A stretch of DNA of 43,411 nt from an uncultured Bacteroidales bacterium. GTDB lineage: Bacteria; Bacteroidota; Bacteroidia; Bacteroidales; Muribaculaceae. Both the position numbers and the translations under genes were made by a program. The stretch is taken from assembly GCA_902776955.1 (NCBI GenBank), contig CACYSG010000014.1:1-43411 (forward strand), written 5' to 3'. The notes under the pieces are model-generated. The model made no database searches. It saw only the letters and a list, made by a program, of their open reading frames with translations, and was not told the DNA's origin. How positions within the stretch are numbered: position 1 is the first letter of the stretch; every line of letters starts with the position of its first letter. Below are positions 4,756 to 36,300 of this stretch, in pieces.

Positions 4756-5367
4756 ATGAAACAGACAATGCCAATAGACGGAAAATTTGAGTTGATGCCC
4801 TTGCCTTATGCCCCCGAGGCGTTAGAGCCGGTCATCAGTGCTAACACGTTGAACTTTCACCATGGGAAGCACCTGGCGGGCTATGTGAACAACCTGAATG
4901 CCGCACTCCCCGGCAGCGGACTGGAGGGGATGTCGATTGAGCAGATTGTGCTTAACACACCGACCGGTATGCACAACAATGCTGGCCAAATCCTGAACCA
5001 CAACCTGTATTTCTCGCAGTTTAGGAGCCCCAGGGCCGATAATGCGCCCACAGGAAAGATTGCACATGCCATTCAAGTGGAGTTCGGCTCGTTTGAGGCT
5101 TTCAAGGAGGTCTTTGCCAAAGCCGGCGTGACGCTGTTCGGCTCGGGATGGGTGTGGCTCAGTGCTGACAAGGACGGCAACCTCAAGATTACACAGGAGC
5201 CTAATGCCGCCAATCCCATCCAGCATGGCCTGCGTCCGTTGATGACGATGGACGTGTGGGAGCATGCCTACTATCTCGACTACCAGAACCGTCGCCCCGA
5301 TCATCTGGCTGCCCTGTGGCAAATCATCGACTGGGATGTGGTCGAGGCCCGTTACAACGAGCCGTAA
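4756..5367 (+). CDS. sodB: Superoxide dismutase, Fe/cambialistic type
   Basis: The 203-residue protein converts superoxide to oxygen and hydrogen peroxide in the cytoplasm. The sequence aligns by eye from end to end with the Bacteroidales Fe/Mn SODs. The metal ligands expected for the family are present: His35 (NFHHGKH), His82 (QILNHNLYF), Asp166 and His170 (MDVWEHAYYLDYQ). Gln78 in NNAGQ sits where iron-type enzymes carry their outer-sphere glutamine, as in the metal-flexible Porphyromonas enzyme. The N-terminus carries about five extra residues before the usual start; an alternative ATG is at codon 5. A promoter box lies at 4718. The gene for a secreted protein follows after 6 nt, so the two probably share a transcript. 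Confidence 0.97.
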   Translation: MKQTMPIDGKFELMPLPYAPEALEPVISANTLNFHHGKHLAGYVNNLNAALPGSGLEGMSIEQIVLNTPTGMHNNAGQILNHNLYFSQFRSPRADNAPTGKIAHAIQVEFGSFEAFKEVFAKAGVTLFGSGWVWLSADKDGNLKITQEPNAANPIQHGLRPLMTMDVWEHAYYLDYQNRRPDHLAALWQIIDWDVVEARYNEP

Positions 5368-5373
5368 AATGCG

Positions 5374-6351
5374 ATGAAACGAGCCCTCACGGCCCTCATG
5401 GCGCTATTGTGCCTCATGGGCACGGCTATGGCTGGCGACAAGGTCAACGAGAACTGGCAGCGGGCGGTGCTCGCTGCCATTGACTCGTTCCCCGAGAACG
5501 GCGGTTACTATACGGGCAGTCGCCCCAATGAGCTCTTCCCCAAGACCACCTGGCGCGGCCTGCACGATGCCTACCAGATGACGGCCGCCGACGAGCGCCC
5601 GCGCTTTGACCCGATGCTGGCGCAGCCGTCCTTCTGCTCGAGCGCGACCTATGGCGTGCTCATCAAGGCCCTGCTCATCTGGGACACCCGTCACAAAATC
5701 AAACGTCAGGCGTGGGTCAACATGAAGCCCCGCGTGGGCATTGCCGACGAGTTCAACCCCGATGGAGTGGGGCAGGACGACGGTGTGGGCTTCTGGGGAC
5801 GGGCCAACGCCAACGGGCCGGGCCTGGGCGTGCTGGTGCGGGAACTGGGAGCCGGTTACAGTTTCACCGCCTACCGCGGCGCCAAGAGCGAGCGCAACCG
5901 CGAGACGCCCGACGAGCGATATATGACCGTTGACGAGTGGTGCGCCCTCGACGTGTGGAATAGGGCTGTCCCGGGTGACCTGATGAAAATCTTCTGGAAC
6001 CGCAACGAGAGCCGCGGCAGCGACAGCGGAGCCATCATTGGCTGCAACGACGACAAGACCGCCGACCAGGAAGCCGGCCACAGCGTCATCTTCATGGGTT
6101 GCGAGGGAGATACCGTCACCTACTGGTCCTCTAACGGCCCCGGCAAGCACCCCGAACTGATGGGCTACAGCATGGGCCGATGCCACAAGACCGCCATCCA
6201 GCGCGTCGTCTTCACCCGCATCACCCGCCCCGAGCGCTTCAACAACGCGCGCAAAATGGCGCCCACCGATGTCAACGCCTACCTGCGTGACCTCAACGGC
6301 GTGCGCCACAGTTCTACTGCCGAAATGCTCCGCCAAATCGGCATCAAGTAA
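5374..6351 (+). CDS. Secreted protein, putative papain/NlpC-like cysteine hydrolase
   Basis: The 325-residue protein has a signal peptide (MKRALTALMALLCLMGTAMA) and begins 6 nt after the sodB stop. I do not recognise a named family. The order of conserved-looking residues suits a papain-fold hydrolase: Cys88 in FCSSATYG at a helix start, His236 in GHSVIF on a strand, and Asn254 in YWSSNGPG. This assignment is inference from pattern only. Other notable motifs are GVGFWGRANANGPG and VPGDLMKIFW, the latter reminiscent of NlpC/P60-type PGDL loops. The last 43 residues (ITRPERFNNARK to LRQIGIK) are repeated almost exactly at 7634-7765, after the ATPase gene, which marks an insertion or duplication event here. 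Confidence 0.75.
   Translation: MKRALTALMALLCLMGTAMAGDKVNENWQRAVLAAIDSFPENGGYYTGSRPNELFPKTTWRGLHDAYQMTAADERPRFDPMLAQPSFCSSATYGVLIKALLIWDTRHKIKRQAWVNMKPRVGIADEFNPDGVGQDDGVGFWGRANANGPGLGVLVRELGAGYSFTAYRGAKSERNRETPDERYMTVDEWCALDVWNRAVPGDLMKIFWNRNESRGSDSGAIIGCNDDKTADQEAGHSVIFMGCEGDTVTYWSSNGPGKHPELMGYSMGRCHKTAIQRVVFTRITRPERFNNARKMAPTDVNAYLRDLNGVRHSSTAEMLRQIGIK
6220..6351 (+). repeat. Direct repeat flanking the ATPase gene, copy 1 (3' end of the hydrolase gene)
   Basis: These 132 bp align without gaps to 7634-7765 with seven mismatches. Most mismatches are silent; only Met to Leu and Ile to Leu change the encoded tail. The copy here is the functional 3' end of the secreted hydrolase gene. Confidence 0.9.
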
Positions 6352-6388: not shown

Positions 6389-6447
6389 TTTTTGGAACAT
6401 AATCCAAAAAAGACATGACTTTTTGGGATTATAATCCAAAAAAGTTG
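6389..6447. promoter_or_regulatory. Twin palindromic operator-like sites before the ATPase gene
   Basis: Two successive palindromes lie just upstream of the ATPase promoter: CTTTTTTGGA...TCCAAAAAAG and CTTTTTGGGAT...ATCCAAAAAAG. Both share the half-site ATCCAAAAAAG or its near copy and are about 30 bp apart. The second touches the TTG of the -33 element, so a dimeric repressor bound here could block transcription. That function is inference. Confidence 0.5.
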
Positions 6448-6475
6448 CAAAAACCAAATCAAAGGCTTACCTTTG
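6445..6475 (+). promoter_or_regulatory. Promoter of the AAA/DUF4143 ATPase gene
   Basis: TTG (6445-6447), a 20-nt spacer and TACCTTTG (6468-6475) form a good Bacteroidetes -33/-7 pair. The predicted start of transcription is about 10-15 nt before the ATG at 6494. Confidence 0.65.
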
Positions 6476-6493
6476 CGTCAAAAAAAAGAGGTG

Positions 6494-7621
6494 ATGTATT
6501 ATAGGGATTTACAATCTGTCATTAAAGATAAGTGTTATCGTCAAAAAGCCATTCTGATATTAGGCGCACGTCAGGTGGGTAAAACTACCTTGCTTAAAGA
6601 ATTCATGAAAGAGCAGGCCGATGAAGTGCTATATCTTAATTGTGACGAACCGTTGACGGTATCAATGCTGGCTAACCGCAACCTCAAGCAGTTGCAGATA
6701 ATGATAGGAACAGCTAAAATCGTCATCATTGATGAAGCACAAAAGGTTGATAATATAGGGTTAACACTCAAGATAATCGTTGACAATTTCCCTGAAGTTC
6801 AAGTGATAGCTACTGGTTCTTCAGCCTTTGAACTGCGCAACAGGCTGAATGAACCATTGACGGGACGCAAATACGAGTATCAGCTATTTCCTATCTCCAC
6901 TAATGAAATATACAAGACTGCAGGTTATGTGGATGTAACGCGTCAATTGGAGTCAAGACTCATCTATGGATCATACCCCGATATCCTGACGCATGAACCA
7001 GAAGCGCATGAACTGTTGAATTCACTAACAGATAGTTATTTATATAAGGATATTCTTGTTTCAGATAACTTGCGCAAACCCGACTTACTGGATAAGTTGG
7101 TAAGGGCATTGGCGTTTCAGGTAGGTTCAGAGGTCAGCTATAACGAGTTATCGCAAATAATAGGAAGCGATCCGAAAACAGTAGAGCGTTACATTGAACT
7201 CCTGGAAAAGAGTTTTATTATTTTCCGCCTCAATGGCCTTAGTCGAAATCTGCGCAATGAGCTGAAAAAAACAAAAAAGATTTATTTTTACGATAATGGT
7301 GTTCGTAATGCTGTGATACAGCAGTTTGCCCCGCTTGACATGCGAAGTGACGTGGGAGCTTTATGGGAGAACTTCTTTATTGCCGAGCGCATCAAGTTCA
7401 ACCACTATCGTCAACATTATTGCAACATATACTTTTGGCGTACCAAATCACAACAAGAGATAGACTATATTGAGGAAAGAAATGGCACATATGATGTTTT
7501 TGAGATGAAATGGAACCCGAGAAACGCCGAAGTTGCTTTCCCTGCTAGTTTTCTAAATGCATACCCTGTGGCAGATACAGCTGTCATCACTCCCGAGAAT
7601 TATCTGAATTATCTGATTTAG
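6494..7621 (+). CDS. AAA ATPase with DUF4143 C-terminal domain
   Basis: The start is taken as ATG 6494 (MYYRDLQSVI), which follows AAAGAGG; an in-frame TTG at 6473 lies inside the promoter and is unlikely. The 375-residue protein has Walker A GARQVGKTT (residues 24-32), Walker B IVIIDEAQ and a sensor-like ATGSSAF. These are followed by the PLTGR motif and a C-terminal DUF4143 region that ends in a nuclease-like fold segment (WRTKSQQEIDYIEE). The family is widespread in anaerobes; its role is unknown, though links to mobile or stress functions have been proposed. The gene is clearly more AT-rich than its neighbours, has its own promoter, and is bracketed by a direct repeat of the preceding gene's 3' end. 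All this points to acquisition by transfer. Confidence 0.9.
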   Translation: MYYRDLQSVIKDKCYRQKAILILGARQVGKTTLLKEFMKEQADEVLYLNCDEPLTVSMLANRNLKQLQIMIGTAKIVIIDEAQKVDNIGLTLKIIVDNFPEVQVIATGSSAFELRNRLNEPLTGRKYEYQLFPISTNEIYKTAGYVDVTRQLESRLIYGSYPDILTHEPEAHELLNSLTDSYLYKDILVSDNLRKPDLLDKLVRALAFQVGSEVSYNELSQIIGSDPKTVERYIELLEKSFIIFRLNGLSRNLRNELKKTKKIYFYDNGVRNAVIQQFAPLDMRSDVGALWENFFIAERIKFNHYRQHYCNIYFWRTKSQQEIDYIEERNGTYDVFEMKWNPRNAEVAFPASFLNAYPVADTAVITPENYLNYLI

Positions 7622-7627
7622 GAGCTA

Positions 7628-7765
7628 ATGAATATCACCCGCCCCGAGCGCTTCAACAACGCACGCAAATTGGCGCCCACCGATGTCAACGCCTACCTGC
7701 GTGACCTCAACGGCGTGCGCCACAGTTCTACTGCCGAAATGCTCCGCCAGTTAGGAATCAAGTGA
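7628..7765 (+). pseudogene. Second copy of the hydrolase 3' end after the ATPase gene
   Basis: An ATG at 7628, 7 nt after the ATPase stop, opens a 45-codon frame (MNITRPERFNNARKLAPTDV...) that repeats the last 43 residues of the secreted hydrolase, with its own TGA stop. Differences from copy 1 are mainly at third positions and the two replacements are conservative, so this tail diverged under coding constraint before it reached this place. It is best read as the orphaned 3' end of a gene variant, separated from its body by the ATPase insertion. Confidence 0.8.
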
Positions 7766-7812
7766 GCTCTTGGAAAACTCCAAAAAGTCCAAGAGTTCCA
7801 GAACTCCGAGTT
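7766..7812. terminator. Hairpins between the repeat copy and the converging lipoprotein gene
   Basis: CTCTTGGA (from 7767) pairs with TCCAAGAG after a 13-nt loop, and GGAAC/GTTCC and CTCGGAG-like short arms follow before GTTTTTATTTC. The region lies between converging genes and could stop transcription from either side. Confidence 0.45.
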
Positions 7813-7813
7813 T

Positions 7814-8611
7814 TTATTTCAGACCCGAGATGTCAATGTCGCCACTGCCGGTGACCTTTTCCTCGTGAGTTTCTGCGGTGCCTTGCAACTTGATATCGCC
7901 ACTTCCCGCGATTTTGGAAGAGACGTAACCTACCTTGAGGTTGCTGACATTGATGTCGCCCGATCCAGTGATACTGTTTGTCAAGTTACTGCATTCGAGC
8001 GCTGCAATGTCGATATCGCCCGAACCGGTGACCGTGTTCTCAACAATGCCTGCCATGATGGGGCCTATGGCAACGTCGCCCGATCCCGTGACAGTGATAC
8101 CTACAGCGTTGGCTTTCAACTCGGCGATGGTGATGTCGCCCGAACCAGTCACATGAAGTTCGAGGTAACTCGTGTTCAATGCATAAGGCGCTGTCACTGT
8201 ACCTGATCCGGTGACGGTGATATCCTTAATATGCGGAGATGTGACGAATATCCTCATGTGGTCAAATGTGTTTTCCTTGAGGTTCTCGACACTCACGTCG
8301 ATGGTCAACTGGCCGTCCTTGACATAGATGGTCATCTTCTCCAACTGTTCGGGAGTACCTTCAACACGCACGGTGTGATCATTGCCAATCTCATAGATGA
8401 CGTTAAATGGACCGACCGACTTCAAGCAGTCAAACGGGTCCATCTTAATGGTTTCGTTCACTTGATGAACTTGTGTGGGCGTATCGTTCTTATGTCCACC
8501 GCCAAGGGACCAGCCGTTGTCACCGATTTTCACATGCATGCATGACGTCATCGTCATGGCTACCAGAGCCACGAGGCTCATCAGGAAAATTTTCTTCATA
8601 TTCTGTTTCAT
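7814..8611 (-). CDS. GIN-domain (DUF2807) lipoprotein
   Basis: The 265-residue protein begins with a lipoprotein signal ending in the lipobox MTSC, so it should be anchored in the envelope. The body is a right-handed beta-solenoid-type repeat: the motif VTGSGDI recurs at least seven times at spacings of about 18-22 residues (VTGSGTVTA, VTGSGDITI, VTGSGDVAI, VTGSGDIDI, ITGSGDINV, IAGSGDIKL, VTGSGDIDI). This is the signature of the head GIN/DUF2807 family, common in Bacteroidetes. Its molecular function is not known. Met5 (MKKIF) is an alternative start. The protein stops right after the last repeat, with no C-terminal extension. Confidence 0.88.
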   Translation of the reverse strand: MKQNMKKIFLMSLVALVAMTMTSCMHVKIGDNGWSLGGGHKNDTPTQVHQVNETIKMDPFDCLKSVGPFNVIYEIGNDHTVRVEGTPEQLEKMTIYVKDGQLTIDVSVENLKENTFDHMRIFVTSPHIKDITVTGSGTVTAPYALNTSYLELHVTGSGDITIAELKANAVGITVTGSGDVAIGPIMAGIVENTVTGSGDIDIAALECSNLTNSITGSGDINVSNLKVGYVSSKIAGSGDIKLQGTAETHEEKVTGSGDIDISGLK

Positions 8612-8783
8612 TTTTAGTTATTGTTGTTCGTCTACACTATAGACGCACGAGAGACCCAAAAAGTTTCAAGTTTTATCAAAAAAAATGCTTCTTTTCTCCA
8701 AAATCACTGTCTTTCAATACATTACGAAATATCAAAAAAAGTAGTACCCAGTAAAAAACGCTTTGCTATAGAAGCCGCACCAT

Positions 8784-9010
8784 GTAGGGCCTCGCCTTGG
8801 CGTGGCCTAAAATAAACTACGAATTACGCTAATTAAACAAATAGGCATCCGCGTTCAATTAAGCCAGATTCCACGAATTGCGGCCACGCCAAGGCGAGGC
8901 CCTACTTGCCAGCGACCGGGGACGGCGACCGGGGACGGCTCTTCTGGATGAAAAATGCTTGCATTTTTCGGACAGAAGAACCGTCCCCCCGTAACCTCAA
9001 ACCCCGTCCC
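8784..9010. repeat. Composite GC-rich intergenic repeat, copy A
   Basis: It begins with a 24-bp module (8784-8807, core CGCCTTGGCG) that is present again in inverted orientation at 8882-8905, so the two can pair as arms around an AT-rich centre (CTACGAATTACGCTAATTAA...). A GACCGGGGACGG stretch follows, then the palindrome GAAAAATGC/GCATTTTTC, then CCGTCCCCCCGTAACC. The same order of modules occurs at 30410-30620 and 41316-41607, and in degenerate form at 12343-12520. GGGGACGG and CCGTCCCC can extend the inner palindrome into one long hairpin. Confidence 0.8.
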
Positions 9011-9392
9011 TCGTAACCTACAGGTAAGCCTACCACTCCTATTTTACACTCACCCGATAAAAGCTGCAGGCCGATGTGGTCGAAGACCACGACAAGGCCG
9101 TCGGCCTTGAATTGAGGCAACCCCAGGGCGCACAGGCCGTAGGCCTCGTGTGGCCTGGGGAGCAAGGCTCCCTCTCGATGGGCCCTGAAGGGGGCCACTC
9201 ACGTTAGGCGGTGGGCATCCCGTTAAATTCCGGCATTTTGCAGGTGTTTGCGGTATTCGTCTTCAAAGGATTCCCGTTGATGATGTGCGCCCTGTTCAAG
9301 TCAAGGCCGTCGGCCGTGTACCAAGCAGTTATCCGCTGAGCCCTATTTTAACTTCAAATGTTCACAATGCGAAATTATCTGGACACCCTAAT
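9011..9392. other. Gene-free stretch with many short hairpins
   Basis: Apart from the possible transposase tail, I see only small inverted repeats: GGTCGAAGACC, AAGGCCGTCGGCCTT, GGCCGTAGGCC, GGGAGCAAGGCTCCC and GGGCCC/GGGGGCC. They occur in quick succession, with a second GGCCGTCGGCC near 9306-9316. The one long minus frame (8902-9198) is built of this repeat material and does not look like a gene. Confidence 0.5.
9223..9302 (-). pseudogene. Probable remnant of an IS200-like/REP-associated Y1 transposase C-terminus
   Basis: On the minus strand a short open frame reads LEQGAHHQRESFEDEYRKH... and ends at TAA (9223-9225). The HHQ...SFEDEYRKxL pattern matches, from memory, the C-terminal tail of IS200-like transposases that accompany REP palindromes in Bacteroidetes. 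A stop lies immediately upstream in this frame and no catalytic HUH or tyrosine motif is visible, so at most the tail survives. The assignment is tentative. Confidence 0.4.
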
Positions 9393-9435
9393 GAAAAAAA
9401 AACACGCCTGTAACCCTAGTGCGGTTGCAGGCGTG
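9393..9435 (-). terminator. Terminator of mscL
   Basis: Arms CACGCCTG (9403-9410) and CAGGCGTG (9428-9435), extended by TAACC/GGTTG, form a hairpin. On the minus strand it is followed by a run of T (plus-strand A-tract 9394-9402). A standard Rho-independent terminator. Confidence 0.85.
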
Positions 9436-9488
9436 GTTGTGTCATTCACATACGGTAGCACAGGGCTTCCGTAACTGGAGGGCAGGGC

Positions 9489-9986
9489 TTACTTCTTGTC
9501 CTTGAGCAGGTCGCGAATGTCGGTAAGCAGCTCTTCGGTCGAGGGACCAGCGGGAGCCTCGGGCTCTTCCTTCTTGGGCATGAGCTTGTTCATAGCCTTG
9601 ATCATCAAGAAAATACAGAAGGCGATGATCAAGAAGTCAATGATGTTCTGCAGGAACAGACCATACTTAATGGTTGCACCAACTGCCTCGGTGGCTACAC
9701 CGGCATTGGCGGCAACGGTGCTGGCAGCATCGGCAACGGCCTCAACAGCCCCGTCGGCACCTACTGCCGAGGCGGCATCGCCCACCATCTCGGATACGGG
9801 AGGCAAGTGATACTCCAGTCCAGAGAGATCAACACCGCCAGTGAGGATTCCGATGAAAGGCATCAGCACATCGTCAACCAGCGAAGTGACAATCTTGCCA
9901 AAAGCACCACCGATGATAACACCGACAGCCATGTCCATCACGTTGCCTCGCATGGCAAACTCTTTAAACTCTTTGAAAAAACCCAT
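9489..9986 (-). CDS. mscL: Large-conductance mechanosensitive channel MscL
   Basis: The 165-residue inner-membrane protein forms a pentameric pore that opens under osmotic downshock. The family's N-terminal amphipathic helix and first membrane helix are clear ([20 protein letters not shown], then [17 protein letters not shown]), as is the second helix ([20 protein letters not shown]). A charged C-terminal bundle with a [12 protein letters not shown] motif follows. The protein is about 30 residues longer than usual because the periplasmic loop has an Ala/Val-rich insert (about residues 64-105, [20 protein letters not shown] and onward). An mscL terminator lies at 9393-9435. A possible minus-strand -7 box (TATCTTTG, 10160-10167) lies far upstream. 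Confidence 0.96.
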
Positions 9987-10114
9987 AATTTTACAATTTT
10001 AAAAAATTAATATTATGATGAAATACAAAAAATTAGCGAGTATTAAACTATCTTAATTATGTCGGAAAAGTAGCATTTTGTCAGTCAAAGTCAGTGTAAT
10101 ATCAAAAAATTACT

Positions 10115-10141
10115 TAACTTTGCAGTCGTAATAGCGACTGC
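10115..10141 (+). promoter_or_regulatory. -7 box of gap and an initial-transcript hairpin
   Basis: TAACTTTG (10115-10122) matches TAnnTTTG. The predicted transcript begins within or next to the perfect hairpin GCAGTCG-TAATAG-CGACTGC (10122-10141), leaving a roughly 100-nt leader before the gap ATG. No clear TTTG -33 element is visible. Confidence 0.5.
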
Positions 10142-10211
10142 ACTGACGTTATTGCCAATGCAAAGATAGTAAAAAATTGAACTAATAGTTATATAACTAC
10201 ATTAATTTTAA

Positions 10212-11270
<1,059 letters not shown>

Positions 11271-11291
11271 TCAGCCACTTTGACACTCATC

Positions 11292-11330
11292 AATCCCCGC
11301 ATCGCGTCATGGCGATGTCGGGGATTTTTT
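11292..11330 (+). terminator. Terminator of gap
   Basis: AATCCCCGCATCGC pairs with GCGATGTCGGGGATT around the loop GTCATG and runs into a T6 tract. A strong Rho-independent terminator 20 nt after the gap stop. Confidence 0.92.
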
Positions 11331-11349
11331 CATAAAAAACGATAAAAAA

Positions 11350-11382
11350 TTTGGAATATAGGTTTTGCTTGACTTAACTTTG
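11350..11382 (+). promoter_or_regulatory. Promoter of the rubredoxin/reverse rubrerythrin unit
   Basis: TTTG (11350-11353), a 21-nt spacer and TAACTTTG (11375-11382) match the Bacteroidetes promoter pattern. The rubredoxin ATG is 47 nt downstream of the -7 box. Confidence 0.7.
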
Positions 11383-11428
11383 TAACCAACAAATCGTTTT
11401 TATTAACCATCTTAAATATTTCACGACA

Positions 11429-11542
11429 ATGAAGAAATGGAAATGCACTGTGTGTGGTTACATCCATGAGGGTGACACACCTCCCGAGGAATGCCCCCTG
11501 TGCGGCGTAGGACCCGAGGACTTTGAGGAAGTGACCGAGTAA
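11429..11542 (+). CDS. Rubredoxin
   Basis: This 37-codon gene (ATG 11429, TAA 11540-11542) encodes [20 protein letters not shown] followed by a second CPLCG motif. The two Cys-x-x-Cys knuckles (Cys6/Cys9 and Cys22/Cys25) bind one iron atom. Rubredoxins are small electron carriers that feed peroxide-reducing enzymes such as rubrerythrins in anaerobes. It is shorter than typical rubredoxins (about 52 residues). It matches the N-terminal domain of the next gene almost residue for residue, suggesting a recent duplication or a domain split. It has its own promoter and no terminator before the next gene 129 nt downstream. Confidence 0.88.
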
Positions 11543-11671
11543 GGCTCCACGCTCTCTCTTAGGCTTTCGGCTTTATGCTGCCTGGCTTTAACGCTACTAA
11601 CAATTCACAATTAAAAAATTACTAATTCATCAACAAACAACTAATAACTATCATTCATTATTATTATCATT

Positions 11672-12223
11672 ATGGCAAAGAAATGGATCTGCACCGTGTG
11701 CGGTTACGTACATGAGGGCGACACGCCCCCCGAGAAATGTCCGCAGTGTAAACAACCCGCCGAGAAGTTCAAGGAACTCAAGGAAGACGAGGAAGTAACC
11801 TATGCCGCCGAGCATGTACTCGGCGTCGCCAAGGGCGTTGACCCCGAAATCCTCGCCGGACTCAAGGCACACTTCGAGGGCGAATGCTCCGAGGTCGGCA
11901 TGTATCTGGCCATGTCGCGCCAGGCCGACCGCGAGGGATATCCCGAGGTAGCAGAGGCCTTCAAGCGCTACGCATTTGAGGAGGCCGAGCACGCCGCCAA
12001 GTTCGCCGAGCTCCTGGGCGAGGTCGTTTGGGACACCAAGACCAATCTCGAGAAGCGCATGGCAGCCGAGGCTGGCGCATGTGAGGACAAATTCCGCATC
12101 GCCAAGCTCGCCAAGGCACAGAACCTCGACGCCATCCACGACACCGTTCACGAGATGGCACGCGACGAGGCACGCCACGGACAGGGCTTCACCGGCCTGT
12201 ACAACCGCTTCTTCAAGAAGTAA
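11672..12223 (+). CDS. Reverse rubrerythrin (N-terminal rubredoxin, C-terminal di-iron domain)
   Basis: The 183-residue protein starts with a rubredoxin domain (CTVCGY at about 7-12 and CPQC at about 24-27). It continues with a ferritin-like four-helix domain carrying the di-iron ligands expected of rubrerythrins: [24 protein letters not shown] and a C-terminal [11 protein letters not shown]. The domain order is the reverse of classical rubrerythrin, as in the clostridial reverse rubrerythrins that act as NAD(P)H-dependent peroxidases with a flavin reductase partner. With rubredoxin upstream and sodB elsewhere in the window, it fits detoxification of oxygen products in an anaerobe. A terminator follows at 12251. 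Confidence 0.93.
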
Positions 12224-12250
12224 GCCGCAGCCGCCTGCACGACACTTTAG

Positions 12251-12307
12251 TAGGGTTTAGAGGTAAAGAGGAGAATACTCCTCACCACCCCTAAACCCTA
12301 ATTTTTT
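12251..12307 (+). terminator. Terminator of reverse rubrerythrin
   Basis: TAGGGTTTAG pairs with CTAAACCCTA, with an inner AGGAG/CTCCT stem. It is followed by ATTTTTT. Confidence 0.85.
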
Positions 12308-12342
12308 ACCCCTTAAGGTCATTGCCGTATAAACCACCCACT

Positions 12343-12520
12343 GTAGGGCCTCGCCAAGGTCCTACCCGCCATCGACCCAGGACAGCGACCGGGGGTAGCG
12401 ACTGGGGACTGCTCAACCCCCGTCGCCTCCGTCCCCCCCGTCCCCTCCGTAATCTCCGTTCCCTCCGTAACCCCCGTGACCTCCGTGACCCCCGTATCCT
12501 AGAGCCACTAGCAGTGTCAC
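12343..12520. repeat. Composite intergenic repeat, degenerate copy with CCGT-rich tandem tract
   Basis: GTAGGGCCTCGCC begins the element as in the other copies. The second half of the module is altered (AAGGTCCTAC), the GACCGGGG stretch is recognisable, and the AAAAATG palindrome is missing. From about 12415 a purely CCGT-based tract follows (CCTCCGT, CCCCCGT, CTCCGTAAT and so on) with a period near 9 nt. The tract is open in several reading frames but shows no gene. Confidence 0.65.
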
Positions 12521-12572
12521 AGGCAATCCCATCAGACAGGGGCCGAAACACCCGGAGGGTGTCATCTGAGTA

Positions 12573-12630
12573 ACCGGTGGTACCTGCCAATGAAACGAGC
12601 GAAGCGAGTGAATTGGCAGGCACCACCGGT
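12573..12630. repeat. Long near-perfect inverted repeat
   Basis: ACCGGTGGTACCTGCCAAT (12573-12591) pairs with ATTGGCAGGCACCACCGGT (12612-12630), with one mismatch. The loop itself contains the small dyad CGAGCGAAGCGAG. A shorter dyad (ACACCC GGA GGGTGT) lies just upstream. It resembles a REP-type hairpin; no gene is present. Confidence 0.7.
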
Positions 12631-12691
12631 GCCACAATGCCTCCCTATCGTCGCCGGAGGCGACCCCAATTAACCTCTATCCTATAAACTA

Positions 12692-12723
12692 GCAACGCCT
12701 GGGCCATACGGCTCAGGCGTTGC
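12692..12723 (-). terminator. Probable native terminator of tRNA-Arg, displaced by the element
   Basis: GCAACGCCTG and CAGGCGTTGC form a hairpin with inner GCC/GGC pairs. On the minus strand this would directly follow the tRNA-Arg 3' end if the 15-bp repeats were recombined and the element removed. Its T-run is weak (TAGTTTATAG). Confidence 0.5.
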
Positions 12724-12731
12724 AATCTCTC

Positions 12732-12746
12732 GTACTCCCGCTGGGA
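12732..12746. other. attL core
   Basis: GTACTCCCGCTGGGA is identical to the tRNA-Arg 3' end at 18731-18745 but is not followed by the rest of a tRNA. It marks the left end of the element. Confidence 0.88.
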
Positions 12747-12863
12747 CTACTTAAATAGTAATTTGCTACATCTTGAAACATTCATAACTACTTGAAAAAC
12801 ACCGCAAAGATAAATCTATTTTTTGAAATAGAATATAATAGAAGGCAATAAAATGTGAAAAAA

Positions 12864-12884
12864 TTGCCAGTAGATTTGCCAGTA
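12864..12884. promoter_or_regulatory. Left pair of putative integrase arm sites
   Basis: TTGCCAGTA occurs twice (12864-12872 and 12876-12884), 12 bp apart. The same doublet appears near the right end at 18651-18671. The second left copy overlaps the -33 element (TTTG, 12875-12878) of the integrase promoter, so binding by integrase or excisionase could repress int. Function is inferred. Confidence 0.55.
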
Positions 12885-12906
12885 AAATGAAAAGTGCCTA
12901 TATTTG
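12875..12906 (+). promoter_or_regulatory. Promoter of the integrase gene
   Basis: TTTG (12875-12878), a 20-nt spacer and TATATTTG (12899-12906) form a full Bacteroidetes promoter, 25 nt before the integrase ATG. Confidence 0.75.
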
Positions 12907-12931
12907 CACTGGATTATAAAATGATTTGATT

Positions 12932-14356
12932 ATGGCAACTTATAGATTTGAACTGAATGCAAAGCCGAACAAGAAGCAGCAATACAATATTTTGCTGTGT
13001 ATCACCATTGCCGGCAAGAGAAAGAGAGTAAAGACCGACATTTACTTGAACCGAAAAAGTGACTTCAGCACTGAATATAAGGGGGACAAATGGATTAAGC
13101 CCAGCAACCCTGATGCAAAGAAGCTGAATCAGGAATTAGCAGACATTCTTGCAGAAGCCAAAAAGACCTTCAAGGAACTGAAGGAAGATGATGCAGCACC
13201 CACAGCCGAGAATGTTGCAAGACTGGTGAAGGGCGAAGAAAAGTCCAAGACCTTCTTGAAGGTTGATGCTGGTGAACTGGCTGGCTTTGCAGCCGAAAGG
13301 ACACAGCAGATTCTTGATGCTGGTGGCATCAGGAACTGGAAGTGTTACAATGGCTTCCTGAACAAGCTGGCTGGCTTCCTCGACAAGAAGATGAACCACA
13401 AGAAGGAATTGCTGTTTAGTGAAATCACCCCTGAATTTCTCACAAGGTTTGATGCTTACCTTCACACCCTTCACAATTCAAGAAGCAAGAAAGAAGCAGG
13501 GAAGATGCTTCACCAAAACACTATTGCAGTAGTGCTGAAAGTTTTCAGGGCTATGATGAGGGAAGCTGTCAAGCTGGGCTATATCACAGCCGACAAGAAC
13601 CCCTTTTTAGTTTTCACTTATAGCAAGGTTAAGACCGAAAAAGAAAAGCTTGATGAAGCCGAAATTCAGGCACTGGAAGCACTGGAACTGGCTGAAGGTA
13701 GTCTTGACTGGCACAGCCGAAATTGCTTCTTGTTTAGCTTCTATTGTGCCGGCATCAGGGCTGGTGACTTGCTGCAATTGCGCTGGCTGAATGTCGAGGG
13801 TGGAAGGCTTAACTATCAAATGGGCAAGAACCACAAGACAAGGGACTTGAAGCTGGTGGCACAAGCAGCAGCCATCCTCGACTTGTATAGGACTGAAGCC
13901 AGCAAGCCCACTGATTACATCTTTCCCTTCATGGACAACCGCAAGACCTATGCAAGTGCCATTTCTCAGGCTGATAGGGACACCCTGCCCAGCGACATGA
14001 AGCAGAAACTATTTGAAGAAGTGTCTGCCAAAAATGCCCTGATCAATAAGAGCCTGAAGAAGCTGGCTGAAAAGGCTGGCATCAGCAAGAAAGTGTCCAT
14101 GCACATCAGCCGACATTCATTTGCGAAAGCAGCAGCACAAAAGGGCATCGAAAGCAATAAAGTGAAGTCTTTGCTGGCACATTCAAAACTGCAAACAACT
14201 GAAGGCTACATGGGCAACTTCAGCACTGATGAAAATGACAAGGCACTGGAATCGGTATTTGGTAGCCCAGCCGACAAGAAGGCACAACTTCTTGCACTGA
14301 TTCAGGGCATGAGTAAAGAAGAAGTGGAATCGGTACTGGCTACCCTCGACAAGTAG
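12932..14356 (+). CDS. int: Tyrosine integrase of the tRNA-Arg element
   Basis: The start is ATG 12932 (MATYRFELNAK); an in-frame TTG at 12926 is less likely. The 474-residue protein has an Arm-type N-terminal domain (residues 1-90), a SAM-like core-binding domain (about 105-215) and a C-terminal catalytic domain. Catalytic residues are visible: Arg276 in CAGIRAGDLL, His391-x-x-Arg394 in HISRH, His417 in LLAHSKLQTT and the nucleophile Tyr426 in TEGYMG. It resembles Bacteroidetes integrases of transposons and islands that use tRNA genes. Its promoter overlaps a putative arm site, consistent with self-control. It is oriented inward from attL and probably catalyses recombination between the 15-bp cores. 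The next two genes follow without a terminator. Confidence 0.95.
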   Translation: MATYRFELNAKPNKKQQYNILLCITIAGKRKRVKTDIYLNRKSDFSTEYKGDKWIKPSNPDAKKLNQELADILAEAKKTFKELKEDDAAPTAENVARLVKGEEKSKTFLKVDAGELAGFAAERTQQILDAGGIRNWKCYNGFLNKLAGFLDKKMNHKKELLFSEITPEFLTRFDAYLHTLHNSRSKKEAGKMLHQNTIAVVLKVFRAMMREAVKLGYITADKNPFLVFTYSKVKTEKEKLDEAEIQALEALELAEGSLDWHSRNCFLFSFYCAGIRAGDLLQLRWLNVEGGRLNYQMGKNHKTRDLKLVAQAAAILDLYRTEASKPTDYIFPFMDNRKTYASAISQADRDTLPSDMKQKLFEEVSAKNALINKSLKKLAEKAGISKKVSMHISRHSFAKAAAQKGIESNKVKSLLAHSKLQTTEGYMGNFSTDENDKALESVFGSPADKKAQLLALIQGMSKEEVESVLATLDK

Positions 14357-14417
14357 CCAGTAGCCGACCACTGCATAATATAAGCATAGAATAACCACAA
14401 TAATAATTGATACTATT

Positions 14418-14651
14418 ATGACGAATTGGCAAGAAACAGCGCAAGCCTACCAGCAAGAAATAGATAGGCTTAATGAGAGTGTAAAGATTGAAAGGGAAGC
14501 CAAAAATAGGGCATATTCTTTTATTCTGCAAAGTGGGTTATATTCTCAATGGGTTGAATTCTGCAAGTTAGGGCTTTATGGTGAAAATCCACACAAGGAA
14601 TGTGCTGAATATTTGTCCCGATCCCCTTATATAGACCCCAAAAACATATAA
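14418..14651 (+). CDS. Small hypothetical protein of the element
   Basis: A 77-residue product (MTNWQETAQAYQQEIDRLNE...) begins 61 nt after the integrase stop. The first half is a charged, coiled-coil-like helix and the second half is rich in Tyr and Cys (Cys at about 51 and 62). I recognise no family. Its last codons are part of a 40-bp repeat (14623-14662) also found at the end of the replication-protein gene. Codon use matches the other element genes. Confidence 0.65.
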   Translation: MTNWQETAQAYQQEIDRLNESVKIEREAKNRAYSFILQSGLYSQWVEFCKLGLYGENPHKECAEYLSRSPYIDPKNI

Positions 14652-14662
14652 ATTTATATGCT
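14623..14662. repeat. 40-bp direct repeat, copy 1, with perfect palindrome
   Basis: The repeat starts CCCCTTATATAG and ends with the perfect palindrome CATATAAATTTATATG (14645-14660) plus CT. It matches 17963-18002 at 35 of 40 positions. Both copies cover the stop region of a gene, so this is not simple coding homology. Confidence 0.85.
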
Positions 14663-15563
14663 TATGACACTGGAAGAAGTAAACAAGAAGTATGATGAAT
14701 TCCAAAGGCTTCTACTAAAGACCCCTTTGGAAAAGCACACCCAGCCACTATGGGAAGCTTTTCAGGCTGTTGCAAGTGGTGATATTAAGGTGGAACATCG
14801 TATTAAAGAAATAGAAGCAGCTATAAAGAAATGCTATGATGATGCATTATCGGTAGCAAAGCCACTTCTTGCTATACTCAATCATGAGCCAGTGAAAGCC
14901 GGAAAGGAACACATCACAAATGAGCAAGCACTGGAAGCACTGAAGCAAGCACTTGTGGCTGAATACAAAAGAATGAAATTGGATTATCGTGATATGACAA
15001 TAGAGGAAGCCCAAGCATTTCTTCAGGGCTGGAAGAATGACAAGAATATTGAAAGGTGGATTGTGGAATACAAGGAAGACATGATGTTAAATATTGATTT
15101 TGATGAATCATTTCTTCTTGATGATGTAATAGATGATTGGCTGGAAGAGAATCCAAGTATTTATGAAGACTTTGCTTCAGGCTGCGAAGTGAAGGCAGAA
15201 ATCACACCACAACAAGTTACTGATACAATCAGAAGAAATAGCATCAAGAGGAAGCAGGGAAGAAGAATAAAGAACAAAGAATTATTGTGGCTGATTGTGG
15301 TGATTAGAAGCTATTACAAGGGGCATTGCAATAAAGATTATAGAATGTTTTTCGACTGCATGGACTTATTTGGGCTGATTGATGAGAATGTGAAGAAGGC
15401 ATGGAACAAGAAAGATGAAAAGGAACTGAATGCAGCCAAGACCCAATATTTGAAATCCATGTATGACCAAGCTACTAAATATGATAAAGGAACAATGCCG
15501 ATTCTAATAGCAAAGGACATTCACACCGGAAAAGAATTCATGGAACAAGGGCTACCATACTAA
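14658..15563 (+). CDS. Hypothetical protein of the element (301 aa)
   Basis: The ATG at 14658 lies 6 nt after the previous stop, inside the 40-bp repeat; ATG 14664 is an alternative start (MTLEEVNKKYDEF). The product is soluble, mostly helical and acidic in the middle (FDESFLLDDVIDDWLEENPS), with a basic patch afterwards (IRRNSIKRKQGRRIKNKEL) and a hydrophobic helix (LLWLIVVIRSYYKG). No signal peptide, membrane anchor or catalytic motif is recognisable. It is the last gene of the integrase unit, closed by a terminator at 15575. Its position between integrase and excisionase is where satellites and islands often carry cargo, but a cargo or defence role is only a guess. Confidence 0.75.
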   Translation: MLMTLEEVNKKYDEFQRLLLKTPLEKHTQPLWEAFQAVASGDIKVEHRIKEIEAAIKKCYDDALSVAKPLLAILNHEPVKAGKEHITNEQALEALKQALVAEYKRMKLDYRDMTIEEAQAFLQGWKNDKNIERWIVEYKEDMMLNIDFDESFLLDDVIDDWLEENPSIYEDFASGCEVKAEITPQQVTDTIRRNSIKRKQGRRIKNKELLWLIVVIRSYYKGHCNKDYRMFFDCMDLFGLIDENVKKAWNKKDEKELNAAKTQYLKSMYDQATKYDKGTMPILIAKDIHTGKEFMEQGLPY

Positions 15564-15574
15564 CTGGAACAAAA

Positions 15575-15599
15575 AGGCATCAAGTTTGGTGCTTTTTTT
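15575..15599 (+). terminator. Terminator of the integrase unit
   Basis: AGGCATCA pairs with TGGTGCTT (two wobble pairs) around the loop AGTT and is followed by T7 (15593-15599). It separates the integrase unit from the excisionase unit. Confidence 0.75.
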
Positions 15600-15657
15600 G
15601 TTCCAAAAATGGAACTGAAATGCTTGAAAGAAAGTCTTTTAATGTTCCAAGAAAACC

Positions 15658-15689
15658 TTTGGCAGCCTATTACATCGGGGGTAACTTTG
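15658..15689 (+). promoter_or_regulatory. Promoter of the excisionase/replication unit
   Basis: TTTG (15658-15661), a 20-nt spacer and TAACTTTG (15682-15689) match the Bacteroidetes pattern. GGGGTAAC (15678-15685), overlapping the -7 box, has an inverted match GTTACCCC at 15727-15734; the pair could be an operator or a leader hairpin. Confidence 0.7.
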
Positions 15690-15751
15690 CAGCATCTTTC
15701 AGGCACAATAAGCAATGTTGCGAATTGTTACCCCTGATAGATTAGAATGCA

Positions 15752-16060
15752 ATGGTAAACAATACAATACCGGCAGCAATGCCTTCAGTAGTGATGCTTC
15801 CTCAGGCTGAGTGGGAGGGCATCAAGCACTTGCTGAATGAAGTGAAAGAAACACTTCAAAGCAGATCAGCCGAGGAAATCAGTAGCCAGTGGATAGAAAG
15901 TGCCGAGGCGAGGAAGATGCTGGGAGTATCGGCGAAGACATGGCAAGACTATCGTGACAAAAGGGTGATCCCCTTCAGCCAGTTTGGTAGGAAGATTTAT
16001 GTGCGTAGGGCAGACATCGAAGCCTTCATGCAGCAGCACTACATCAGTGCCAATAACTAA
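15752..16060 (+). CDS. Excisionase-like helix-turn-helix protein
   Basis: The 102-residue protein has a short helical N-terminus and then a winged HTH of the excisionase/MerR-like kind (about residues 48-97). In it, WIESAEARKMLGVSAKTWQD is the helix-turn-helix and GRKIYVRRADIEAFM is the wing and final helix. This is the layout of HTH_17-type proteins that serve as recombination directionality factors in Bacteroidetes mobile elements. It is the first gene of its transcription unit and is followed 17 nt later by the next gene. A role in excision, or in control of the unit through the GGGGTAAC dyad, is inferred. Confidence 0.85.
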   Translation: MVNNTIPAAMPSVVMLPQAEWEGIKHLLNEVKETLQSRSAEEISSQWIESAEARKMLGVSAKTWQDYRDKRVIPFSQFGRKIYVRRADIEAFMQQHYISANN

Positions 16061-16077
16061 GAGAGGGGGATTATATT

Positions 16078-16431
16078 ATGATTGACTTAAAAGAGAAATT
16101 TGGGATTGTGTTCGATAAGCTTGACACTTCCTATTGCGAAAGTATTTTCGAAGGTGAATTTATTGAGAAATGCAGTGTGCTTTTTGATGAATCGAGCAAG
16201 CAATTTGTGACTGAATCAGGCGAAAGGCTGTGTGTGCATGACATCACCATGAGCAAAAAAAAGAATTACCTTTACATTGTCTTGAGGTCAGCCGAATTTG
16301 ATTATCAATGCTGGGCTGATTTTGGTAATTACATGACCCACAGCATTGCACCTTTCTTGGAACAGCAGGGCATCAGGGTCAGGGATTTGGACTTGAAGAA
16401 AAGAAGGTCAAGAAAGGGGGCTGCATCATGA
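16078..16431 (+). CDS. Hypothetical protein of the element (117 aa)
   Basis: It starts at ATG 16078, preceded by a purine-rich AGAGGGGG, which is unusual for Bacteroidetes and resembles a classical ribosome binding site. The product (MIDLKEKFGIVFDKLDTSYC...) is mixed alpha/beta and ends in a strongly basic tail (DLKKRRSRKG), suggestive of nucleic-acid binding. No family is recognised. Its stop overlaps the next start by 4 nt (ATGA), so the two are translationally coupled. Confidence 0.7.
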   Translation: MIDLKEKFGIVFDKLDTSYCESIFEGEFIEKCSVLFDESSKQFVTESGERLCVHDITMSKKKNYLYIVLRSAEFDYQCWADFGNYMTHSIAPFLEQQGIRVRDLDLKKRRSRKGAAS

Positions 16432-16904
16432 CTGAAGAATTCATTAGAAAGTCGATGAAGGTAGCTGTCTACCAGCACAAGGAAGGCACTAAAGCAAGCT
16501 ACTATTGGAAGCAGGGATTCAAGTTACTTCCAAATAGGCTGTCCATTAAGGATGAAGAAATGACCAATGTACAGCACAAAGGAAGGAATGCCATGCACAA
16601 AATAGTGGGGCAGCTTCTTAGCACGTTCAGGCTGGATGAAGAATCACCCCTGAAGCAGCACAAGCCCTATACTTGCCGGACACAAATTTGGCAAGTGCCA
16701 TTGTACCCCCTTTTCATTGGTTATGGTACTATCGGCATCACCAACGAACAACGCAAGGTAAAAGACACTGGTGACCTTATAGTGCTGCACAGCAGCGACC
16801 AGTGGGAAACAATCCGCATCTTTTATTTCGCTGGCATGGGCAACATCAATTACCATGAACAAGTGATGAGGTTTTTATCCAGCTATGTTGAAAGTGGCAA
16901 CTGA
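16428..16904 (+). CDS. Hypothetical protein of the element (158 aa)
   Basis: The ATG overlaps the previous stop. The product begins MTEEFIRKSMKVAVYQHKEG and has several aromatic beta-strand-like segments (YTCRTQIWQVPLYPLF, WETIRIFYFAGMGN). There is no signal peptide and no recognisable catalytic motif. Its place directly before the replication-like gene suggests a role in replication or its control, but nothing in the sequence proves this. Confidence 0.7.
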   Translation: MTEEFIRKSMKVAVYQHKEGTKASYYWKQGFKLLPNRLSIKDEEMTNVQHKGRNAMHKIVGQLLSTFRLDEESPLKQHKPYTCRTQIWQVPLYPLFIGYGTIGITNEQRKVKDTGDLIVLHSSDQWETIRIFYFAGMGNINYHEQVMRFLSSYVESGN

Positions 16905-16966
16905 TATTGCCGAGGTACGAAAGAGGGGGAATGCTTCACAGCAGACCCCCTCAATTGGATTATAAA

Positions 16967-17974
16967 ATGATTGACTTCATTAGCATAATAAAGCCGAATC
17001 AGGGTGGCAAAGTTAGCCCTTTTTTTGGACATTGCCAAATTGTTGCTACCTACCCCACTGGGGCTGCAAGATACCGGCTGGAAGGCTGTGAAGGGCTGGA
17101 CATCTACTGGAATCCTGACAGCTTCCTGAAGCTTCAGGGCAGCATCATGTATTATTGGCAGGGGCATAACTTCACCTATGACCCTGAAGCCTTCCAAGCA
17201 GCCATTGACTACATTGGGAAGATGCTTCATGTGGACTTGTGGGATAGTATTGTGGAAGTGTTTGAATATGGGGTGATCATACCAGTCGAGGTGAAGCCGA
17301 GGGGCTACATTCAGCACCACAAAGCAAAGCCCAGTGAACACCTTCAGCAATACATTAATGGCAAAGACAAGGGCAATTTCACAAGCTGGCAAGATTCAAA
17401 TGTTAGGCTGAAGATGTATGATGCCGGTAAGAACATCGAAATGAAGCAGGGCATGAGCCGAAGGGAAATCATTCAGGAAGCTGGCTGGAATCCTCAGGGC
17501 AACTTCCTGAAGTTGGAAGCCCACTACCTGAAGCCCAGTGTCCTGAATCATGGGAAAGGCTTGATACTTGCCAACCTGATCAATCCTGACTGGCAAAGTA
17601 TCTTCAAGGAAGATTTATATCAACAATATAAAAGACTAATACCAATGGCACAAATTGAAACACCGACAAGCAAGGCTGATTTATCTACAGCCAGCATCAT
17701 TGCACTGGTACTGGTTGAAGATAGCCTGAATGATAGCAAGACCCTTCAGGAAGTGAAAAAGATGCTGTATAATCGCATCAATTCCTTCCCTGATGAAGTC
17801 CTAAGTAAGGCTGACAAAGACAGCAGAAAAAGGCAGGTTAAAGCCATTCTTGGCAAGATGAGGGAAGCCGACACCAGCAAGTGGGATTTGTCCCAGCAGC
17901 TTGCAGCAGCACTGGAAGCTGGCACTGGTGATCAGGGGAACAGCCAGCCAGCAGACACCGACCCCCTTATATAG
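16967..17974 (+). CDS. Putative replication initiator resembling the gene II/X family
   Basis: The start is placed at ATG 16967 (MIDFISIIKPNQGG). The frame is open from 16907 with another ATG at 16931, but the MIDFI start fits family habit. The 335-residue protein shows, in order, motifs I associate with phage/plasmid gene II/X-like initiators: LQGSIMYYWQGHNFTYDPE, an AIDYIGKMLHVD helix, VFEYGVIIPV, then NVRLKMYDAGKNIEMKQG and LKLEAHYLKPSVL. The family call rests on this motif order, not on a search. The C-terminal third is charged and helical. It ends in the second 40-bp repeat and is followed by hairpins and an iteron-like array, as expected if the origin lies downstream. The leader GGATTATAAAATGATT is shared with the integrase gene. 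Confidence 0.62.
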   Translation: MIDFISIIKPNQGGKVSPFFGHCQIVATYPTGAARYRLEGCEGLDIYWNPDSFLKLQGSIMYYWQGHNFTYDPEAFQAAIDYIGKMLHVDLWDSIVEVFEYGVIIPVEVKPRGYIQHHKAKPSEHLQQYINGKDKGNFTSWQDSNVRLKMYDAGKNIEMKQGMSRREIIQEAGWNPQGNFLKLEAHYLKPSVLNHGKGLILANLINPDWQSIFKEDLYQQYKRLIPMAQIETPTSKADLSTASIIALVLVEDSLNDSKTLQEVKKMLYNRINSFPDEVLSKADKDSRKRQVKAILGKMREADTSKWDLSQQLAAALEAGTGDQGNSQPADTDPLI

Positions 17975-18002
17975 CACCGAAAAGCATATAATTTTATATG
18001 CT
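17963..18002. repeat. 40-bp direct repeat, copy 2
   Basis: It matches 14623-14662 at 35 of 40 positions: CCCCTTATATAG, then A-rich, then the dyad AGCATATA-ATTT-TATATGCT. It covers the last codons and stop of the replication-like gene. Confidence 0.85.
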
Positions 18003-18340
18003 GTGCTTCCTTCCCTCGACCCCTCAGGCATGGGGAAAGGGTGAAGCCCCACTAAAGTAGTGGGAAAGTAGTGAGGGCTTGGAAGGCAATGCAGAGGGGG
18101 TGAACTTGCTGACTTCCCCTCTAAATTAGATAAAAAGTAGAGGGGCAGCAGCCAGTGAGAATATGGGGGGTGTTTTTTTGGGGAAGCAAGCAGCCAGTAA
18201 ACCACCACCAGCCGCATCGAACAATAAATTTGTGTTTCGGGTGGAAATTCACCAAACAATAGGCTGAAGAAGCAGCCCATTTCATTGCTATCGTCAGGAA
18301 GCCAGTGTGCCATATCGGTGTGCTGGCTTCAGTCTTGCCG
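18003..18340. other. Gene-free tail of the element with strong hairpins (candidate origin region)
   Basis: Two clear dyads are present: CCCACTA-AAG-TAGTGGG (18048-18064) and CCCCTCTA...TAGAGGGG (18116-18145, 14-nt loop). A G-rich segment with a T7 run follows near 18166-18180. No credible gene is seen. A role as single- or double-strand origin for the replication-like protein is inferred from position. Confidence 0.45.
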
Positions 18341-18564
18341 AGGCATGGCAGCACATGGAACCATCCCAGCCGAGGCATGGCAGCACATGGAACCATCCCA
18401 GCCGAGGCATGGCAGCACATGGAACCATCCCAGCCGAGGCATGGCAGCACATGGCATCATCCCAGCCGAGGCATGGCAGCACATGGCATCATCCCAGCCG
18501 AGGCATGGCAGCACATGGAACCATCCCAGCCGAGGCATGGCAGCACATGGAACCATCCCAGCCG
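18341..18564. repeat. Seven tandem 32-bp repeats, iteron-like
   Basis: Units start at 18341, 18373, 18405, 18437, 18469, 18501 and 18533, exactly 32 bp apart; a partial eighth starts at 18565. Each unit begins AGGCATGGCAGCACATGG. Units 4 and 5 carry CATCATCCC where the others have AACCATCCC. A 32-bp unit is three helical turns, so bound proteins would sit on one face of the DNA. The unit has no stop codon in any plus frame, which produces several overlapping false reading frames. Confidence 0.95.
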
Positions 18565-18650
18565 AGGTGAAAAACTCTATAAAAATCTATATGGAAAACT
18601 GGGTAAAGCTGTACATGAAAAGCAGCCTAAAAAGGGGGTAAAAAAGACAT

Positions 18651-18671
18651 TTTGCCAGTAGTTTGCCAGTA
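18651..18671. promoter_or_regulatory. Right pair of putative integrase arm sites
   Basis: TTTGCCAGTA occurs twice, 11 bp apart, 60-80 bp inside attR. It mirrors the doublet near the left end. Confidence 0.55.
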
Positions 18672-18673
18672 GT

Positions 18674-18716
18674 AAAAAAGCAAAGGCACTGCAAGTAATT
18701 GATTTGCAATGCCTTT
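18674..18716 (-). terminator. Element-borne terminator behind tRNA-Arg
   Basis: On the minus strand AAAGGCATTGCA pairs with TGCAGTGCCTTT (one wobble) and a T6 run follows (plus A-tract 18674-18679). It starts about 15 nt after the tRNA 3' end and lies inside the element, so it replaces the tRNA's displaced terminator. Confidence 0.8.
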
Positions 18717-18730
18717 ATTACTATATTGAA

Positions 18731-18745
18731 GTACTCCCGCTGGGA
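18731..18745. other. attR core within the tRNA-Arg 3' end
   Basis: GTACTCCCGCTGGGA covers the acceptor 3' strand and part of the T-stem of tRNA-Arg and is repeated exactly at 12732-12746. Confidence 0.88.
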
Positions 18746-18803
18746 ATCGAACCCAAATCTAAGGTTTAGGAAACCTCCATTCTATCCATTGAACTACAGG
18801 AGC
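18732..18803 (-). tRNA. tRNA-Arg (anticodon CCT)
   Basis: Read on the minus strand, the acceptor arms GCTCCTG and CGGGAGT pair with two wobbles. The D-arm region contains AGTTCAATGGATAGAAT, the anticodon loop is TTCCTAA, and the T-loop is TTCGATT between TTGGG and CCCAG. The discriminator base is A at 18732. CCA is not encoded. The 3' end is the integration target of the element to its left, and the gene remains complete. It lies directly downstream of secDF on the same strand. Confidence 0.93.
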
Positions 18804-35893: not shown

Positions 35894-36040
35894 CATCTGT
35901 GACACCCGCACATTGCAAAAAATTGAATGTTCCACGATTTATTGACAATTCAAGGGAGTTTTGAACAATTCACCCATTTTAACGGACTTTTACAAGGTTT
36001 TTTGACTAAAATATTGTTCCTTTGCACCCGTGAAACACTG

Positions 36041-36300
36041 TGCAAGCCGAAAGCTGTGAAAGTTTACTTTCAAAGCTGAGGCGCCGCCAGTGTTATTCAA
36101 ACATCGTGCAAGCCGAATGCTGTGAAAGTTCACTTTCAAAGCTGAGGCGCAGCCGATGTTATCTAACCATCGTGCAAGCCGAATGCCACGAAAGTTCACT
36201 TTCAAACAGCTGAGGCGCCGCCGATGTTATCCAACCATCGTGCAAGCCGAAAGCCACGAAAGTTCACTTTCAAACAGCCGAGGCGCCGCCGATGTTATTT
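36041..36300. repeat. Four tandem 66-68 bp repeats upstream of parA
   Basis: Units begin with TGCAAGCCGAA at 36041, 36107, 36173 and 36241 (periods 66, 66 and 68). Each unit contains the dyad GAAAGTTYACTTTC and the GC-rich GAGGCGCCGCCGATGTTAT (one unit has GCAGCCG). The later two carry a 2-bp insertion (CAAACAGC). There are no variable spacers. The array ends about 30 bp before parA. Confidence 0.93.

Follow-up and report, generated by a model that had tools for sequence, protein, structure and literature searches.

A 6.0 kb integrative element in tRNA-Arg(CCT) of an uncultured Bacteroidales bacterium: a probable PICI-like satellite whose relatives carry a small-terminase-like gene

The element and its genes

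The window, i.e. the whole 43,411-bp stretch of DNA analysed here, contains an integrated element that measures 6,014 bp from outer end to outer end of its repeats. Each end carries an exact copy of the 15-bp core GTACTCCCGCTGGGA (attL, 12732-12746; attR, 18731-18745), which matched the 43,411 bp at these two places and was found in 0 of 100 shuffles. A complete tRNA-Arg(CCT) gene on the reverse strand (18731-18803; ARAGORN; Rfam RF00005, 62.1 bits) has the attR core as its 3′ end; all other features described for the element are on the forward strand. A first-pass annotation had proposed a 6.0 kb element in this tRNA gene between 15-bp repeats, and that description holds. The G+C content of the element is 44.1%, versus 54.5% in the rest of the window. 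Two TTGCCAGTA repeats lie inside the left end (12864-12884; copies at 12864 and 12876) and two near the right end (18652 and 18663). They are also present at both ends of three relatives (L003, L004 and L005, introduced below) and are candidate arm sites for the integrase.

The first gene (12932-14356) encodes a tyrosine integrase of 474 aa with arm-binding, SAM-like and catalytic domains in Pfam (PF00589, E 7.4e-17; PF13102, E 3.5e-15; PF17293, E 5.9e-7). The gene previously called excisionase-like (15752-16060, 102 aa) does encode an HTH_17 protein, putatively of the excisionase/AlpA type (PF12728, E 3.2e-12; phrog_66, excisionase and regulator, E 3.4e-7). A 158-aa core protein is encoded immediately 5′ of rep (16428-16904) and is kept in eight members aligned; its model has a pLDDT of 83 and no clear fold match. 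Every listed frame in the element is open. At the limits used, Pfam, PHROGs and NCBIfam named no transfer or virion gene and no coupling protein in the element, with nothing more than weak sub-threshold PHROGs rows, in agreement with the absence of these genes noted earlier.

The remaining genes are variable. The 77-aa protein (14418-14651), which appears to be cargo, has its sole relative among 101 genus genomes in locus L054. The 301-aa protein (14658-15563), which received no Pfam or PADLOC call, has relatives in L004 and L073, and its slot is filled by different proteins in L003, L005, L006 and L019. The 117-aa protein (16078-16431) has a relative in none of the loci fetched and is so far specific to the window copy. 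The order int-77aa-301aa-HTH-117aa-158aa-rep, put forward as a signature for finding relatives, is thus not that of the relatives.

Between rep and attR lies a 32-bp tandem array (18337-18567; 7.2 copies, 97% matches). The array is real, as had been reported, but the word "iteron" is unsafe for it because it is absent from relatives: TRF did not find it in L003, and no array stands at the corresponding place in the alignment of L003, L004 and L005. It is unlikely to be an origin. Tandem repeats also occur outside the element (12415-12500, 36033-36298, 40822-40933 and 41418-41528), including a GC-rich 9-bp array adjoining attL and a 66-bp unit in four copies.

Relatives, empty sites and neighbouring elements

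A query of genome contigs with the Rep protein of the element recovered four relatives among 21 pattern matches: L003 (Bacteroidales MAG RUG12169), L004 (UBA4277), L005 (a 5,950-bp contig binned to Clostridia) and L006 (Phocaeicola faecium Sa1YUN3). L003 is a sister element. The same 15-bp core, unchanged, bounds it on either side; it lies at the same tRNA-Arg(CCT) and shares the flanking genes of the window, recognised by eye as rubrerythrin-like and SecDF-like; the block is therefore bounded by the same repeats in a second genome. In L004, a direct repeat of 23 bp occurs at its own tRNA-Arg(CCT). The first-pass annotation had allowed that the integrase might always belong to a larger conjugative module, and no such module was found with it in L003, L004 or L005. 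Two further observations concern these loci. The L005 contig consists of the element alone. By eye its two ends share TACTTTGT, while a scripted comparison detected no overlap of at least 10; the contig may represent either a circle after excision or a sequence that the assembly broke off at the att sites. In L006 (2874-5463), the integrase appears by eye to be disrupted by other integrase genes, with its C-terminal piece at 5068-5463 followed by an ORF6N protein.

The site also exists without the element. The tRNA flank was matched in all 61 genus genomes searched, and 30 loci were stored, one of them the window's own. Eight of the 30 are empty sites, in which the rubrerythrin gene lies 67-223 bp from a complete tRNA with a single core; the other 22 comprise the window itself, loci with other DNA at the site and cut contigs. 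The Rep family is rare, as judged by its matches in 4 of 101 genomes of the genus (including the window's), 2 of 297 in the family sample (single-protein query), 7 of 393 in the order sample (four of the seven strong) and 2 of 395 in the phylum sample.

Between the window and L003, dS was 0.16 for int (bootstrap 0.12-0.22) and 0.17 for rep (bootstrap 0.11-0.23), versus 0.43-0.87 for six host genes. The ancestor of these two element genes is therefore more recent than that of their hosts, and judging from this sequence divergence the element has probably been transferred between species. The alpA and 158-aa genes do not share these low values (dS 0.23 and 0.53), which indicates that the element is a mosaic.

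Other small elements were seen at this site and elsewhere. At the same tRNA-Arg(CCT), L054 (G688, reverse strand) spans about 7.1 kb from integrase to tRNA and encodes an integrase like that of L018 (see below), AlpA-like, DUF3987, PriCT_2 and DUF5681 proteins and a terminase large subunit (Terminase_3C, E 1.7e-16); the relative of the window's 77-aa protein adjoins the tRNA. No capsid gene was seen in L054 and its left repeat was not located. Integrase-like, HTH-like and terminase large subunit genes also occur together in L092 (G703, 7222-13256) and L093 (G256, 6416-13623), the latter with an L054-like DUF5681 protein; these blocks lie near tRNA-Met and tRNA-Leu. A different element of 6.4 kb occupies the same tRNA-Arg core in L058 (7334-13721) and L057 (near 12858); its genes include integrase, HTH-like and DUF3987 genes, and none was named as a terminase. 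Finally, L056 (16631-18251) has a 1.6 kb block between two core copies; its single gene encodes an ATPase (AAA_14/DUF4143; PADLOC candidate PDC-S01, E 2e-113), and an integrase is missing.

Rep, the paired repeat and the terminase-like gene

Rep is best read from 16967 to 17974 (335 aa), a start common to relatives. Neither Pfam nor NCBIfam places the window protein in a replication family, and the likeness to gene II proteins therefore required profile and fold tests. The window Rep did not match Phage_CRI (PF05144) at E up to 1, and the Reps of L004 and L019 scored 15.4 and 16.1 bits against a Pfam cut-off of 21.7. When the Rep family was aligned with Phage_CRI by hhalign, in one chosen comparison, the result was 93.6% with E 2.1e-7 over 156 columns. 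The predicted fold, from a model of middling quality (pLDDT 68.5), agrees with rolling-circle initiators; Foldseek returned no PDB match for it at E 0.001 or better. Based on profile and predicted fold, the gene II/X-like initiator of the first-pass annotation thus stands as to its rolling-circle type, but without a named Pfam or NCBIfam family for the window protein. The resemblance to filamentous-phage initiators also has its limits, since Phage_CRI rows show a conserved YDK..E stretch where the window Rep has YDAG.N, and the element carries no filamentous-phage genes.

A 45-bp direct repeat, composed of a nick-like prefix and a dyad, is present at 14618-14662 and at 17958-18002, where it overlaps the end of rep; the copies are 87% identical and form a candidate Rep site. 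In the relatives, one copy precedes the variable gene and the other lies at the rep end. Both copies are present in six of nine Rep-family members (the window, L003, L004, L005, L006 and L019, with the first copy of L003 and those of L019 recognised by eye in printed sequence). L020 has the second copy only and L073 the first only, and none was found in L021. Copies within one element share element-specific changes, such as CATAAGAATTTATATG in both copies of L006 and GGGTAA..TTACC in both of L019. Controls for the paired repeat had a mixed outcome. M13 protein 2 is reported to nick in CTTT/ATT adjoining hairpins (PMC11765958). Some relatives have such a nick-like motif beside the dyad, the prefix being CTTTATT in L006 and L020; that of the window is CCCTTATATAG instead. 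The repeat is a candidate Rep origin, and a role as operator is equally possible because the copies sit right before start codons. Were the pair to work like paired f1 origins, Rep might initiate at one copy and terminate at the other, releasing a second, smaller circle of about 3.3 kb that lacks the integrase.

The relatives also have a gene that the window copy lacks. A terminase-small-subunit-like gene lies 3′ of rep in five of eight Rep-family relatives (L003, L004, L005, L006 and L020). In the first four it encodes a protein of 157-166 aa, matched by PHROGs terminase small subunit in L004 (1.9e-9), L005 (1.5e-9) and L006 (6.1e-5); the L003 protein, which was not in that scan, is 70-76% identical to those of L004 and L005 and 51% identical to that of L006. 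In Pfam, the L004 and L005 proteins are best assigned to the HTH family PF13022, with terminase families below cut-off. Among L003, L004 and L005 the gene has a dN/dS of 0.16-0.28. In the distant L020 (Rep 35% identical), an unrelated but clear Terminase_2 protein (E 3.4e-24) occupies the corresponding place. No terminase gene was seen in L019, where the contig ends 487 bp past rep within a partial frame, in L021, which has a stop in rep, or in L073, in which rep is broken.

In the window, the site of this gene is 18144-18165. BLASTN blocks between the window and L003 abut at 18144-18162, with L003 9196-9726 (about 530 bp) lying between them and the gap clean, and the multiple alignment shows the same gap of about 530 bp. 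No remnant was detected in the window by tblastn, and a terminase profile had no match in the window's own genome (89.7% complete). Since the gene is present in the sister and in outgroups, loss in the window copy is the simpler history. The window copy is therefore not the full form of its kind.

Of the 297 genomes in the family sample, three had a match to the terminase profile: L003's own genome, G146 and G173. The latter two hold a second lineage. L018 (G173), beside tRNA-Leu(CAA), has int, two frames, a 211-aa frame, a Phage_CRI Rep (E 1e-21) and a terminase-like gene; L017 (G146), in which an HTH gene was scored, is its near twin. L022 (G312) has integrase-like, HTH_17 and terminase-like genes with a weak Rep match. 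Together, these gene sets indicate that int, HTH, Rep and small terminase recur with different Reps. A paired repeat of the same plan and other sequence flanks rep in three of five CRI loci (L018, L017 and L081, of which L018 and L017 are close kin), and the plan was not seen in L080 or L082. The L022 element lies amid a long repeated unit with translations FQFQYGSIK, by look CRISPR-array-like, on both sides.

A probable phage satellite and its alternatives

Taken together, these analyses lead us to consider, with fair confidence, that the window element belongs to a family of 5.5-6 kb PICI-like satellites of Bacteroidales tailed phages, and that the window copy has lost its packaging gene. 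The integrase and the HTH protein, a likely excision factor, would excise the element at the 15-bp tRNA core and allow its reinsertion. Rep would then drive rolling-circle replication, probably from the paired nick-plus-dyad repeat. In relatives, the satellite-coded small terminase would steer the packaging motor of a tailed phage to satellite DNA, and the window copy would either rely on the helper's own small terminase or be packaged no longer. Several observations weigh against this view. No helper, particle or excised circle was seen, and queries with Rep and terminase sequences drew no match from the phage, plasmid and viral-contig collections searched. The missing terminase gene in the window and its genome, the Pfam HTH assignment of the L004 and L005 proteins, the mosaic dS values and the lack of a PDB match for a middling Rep model likewise count against it. 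A more specific picture, of a Bacteroidales satellite lineage that combines filamentous-phage-like copying by a G2P-type Rep with tailed-phage-like packaging and has its rep module flanked by two direct copies of its own origin, is one we advance tentatively.

The family resembles PICIs in its genes: a site-specific integrase with att repeats, an AlpA-like HTH gene, an initiator of its own, no virion genes and, in relatives of the window copy, a small terminase. It differs in its size (PICIs average 9.5 kb), its Bacteroidales host and its rolling-circle, G2P-like Rep, and the window copy lacks the packaging-redirecting small terminase. The Rep of PICIs is usually of the primase/helicase type. 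One study names many Firmicutes and Gammaproteobacteria as hosts of PICIs and describes PICMIs, which lack terS; for PICMI115, it reports rolling-circle replication and packaging in concatemer form (PMC10803314). The window copy is similar to PICMIs in its very few genes, integrase, AlpA and lack of terS, but PICMIs lie next to fis in Vibrionaceae and the relatives of the window element do have a small terminase. No PICI-like satellite of Bacteroidales was found described in the literature searched, in which preprints and subscription journals are sparsely covered.

The first-pass annotation left open whether a phage or a conjugative element moves this DNA. Its idea of a helper-dependent satellite is retained, but the terminase-like gene of the relatives favours phage packaging over conjugation. 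For the same reason we think it rather unlikely that the element is an integrative mobilizable element whose Rep is a MobT-type relaxase. Such elements do combine an integrase with a rolling-circle initiator-like protein, with which the predicted fold of Rep agrees, and a packaging gene is missing from the window copy itself. In Tn916 and ICEBs1, MobT/Rep_trans relaxases act in transfer as well as in replication, and proteins of this type occur in many streptococcal IMEs (PMC5704250). Against this, five of the eight relatives have the terminase-like gene, including the clear Terminase_2 case, and neither a coupling protein nor another transfer gene was seen.

An ex-satellite without its packaging gene could also have become chromosome-bound, perhaps kept for its cargo. 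The lost terminase gene and the expanded 32-bp array are consistent with such a remnant, as are the decayed relatives (L073, L021 and L056, where the ATPase gene alone is left between att cores). We regard it as improbable to a similar degree, since all frames are open, the att cores and arm repeats are intact, and dN/dS against L003 is 0.07 for int and 0.09 for rep, values that also reflect the L003 branch. Least probable, and very doubtful in our view, is an integrated rolling-circle plasmid or filamentous-phage relative in place of a tailed-phage satellite. Rep does resemble Phage_CRI/G2P proteins and plasmid initiators, and the paired repeat recalls the nick site, next to a hairpin, of filamentous phages. 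However, none of the plasmid and phage records searched carries this Rep, no coat or assembly gene was named, and terminases are genes of tailed phages.

If the PICI-like reading is true, a major bacterial order has small satellites of its own, and a single tRNA-Arg site in one genus hosts several unrelated kinds of small element. The short elements would be suited to defining the minimal requirements of a satellite, and two sister copies of which one has lost the terminase gene offer a natural comparison. The paired origin-like repeat, for its part, provides a concrete and testable prediction of how Rep may act.
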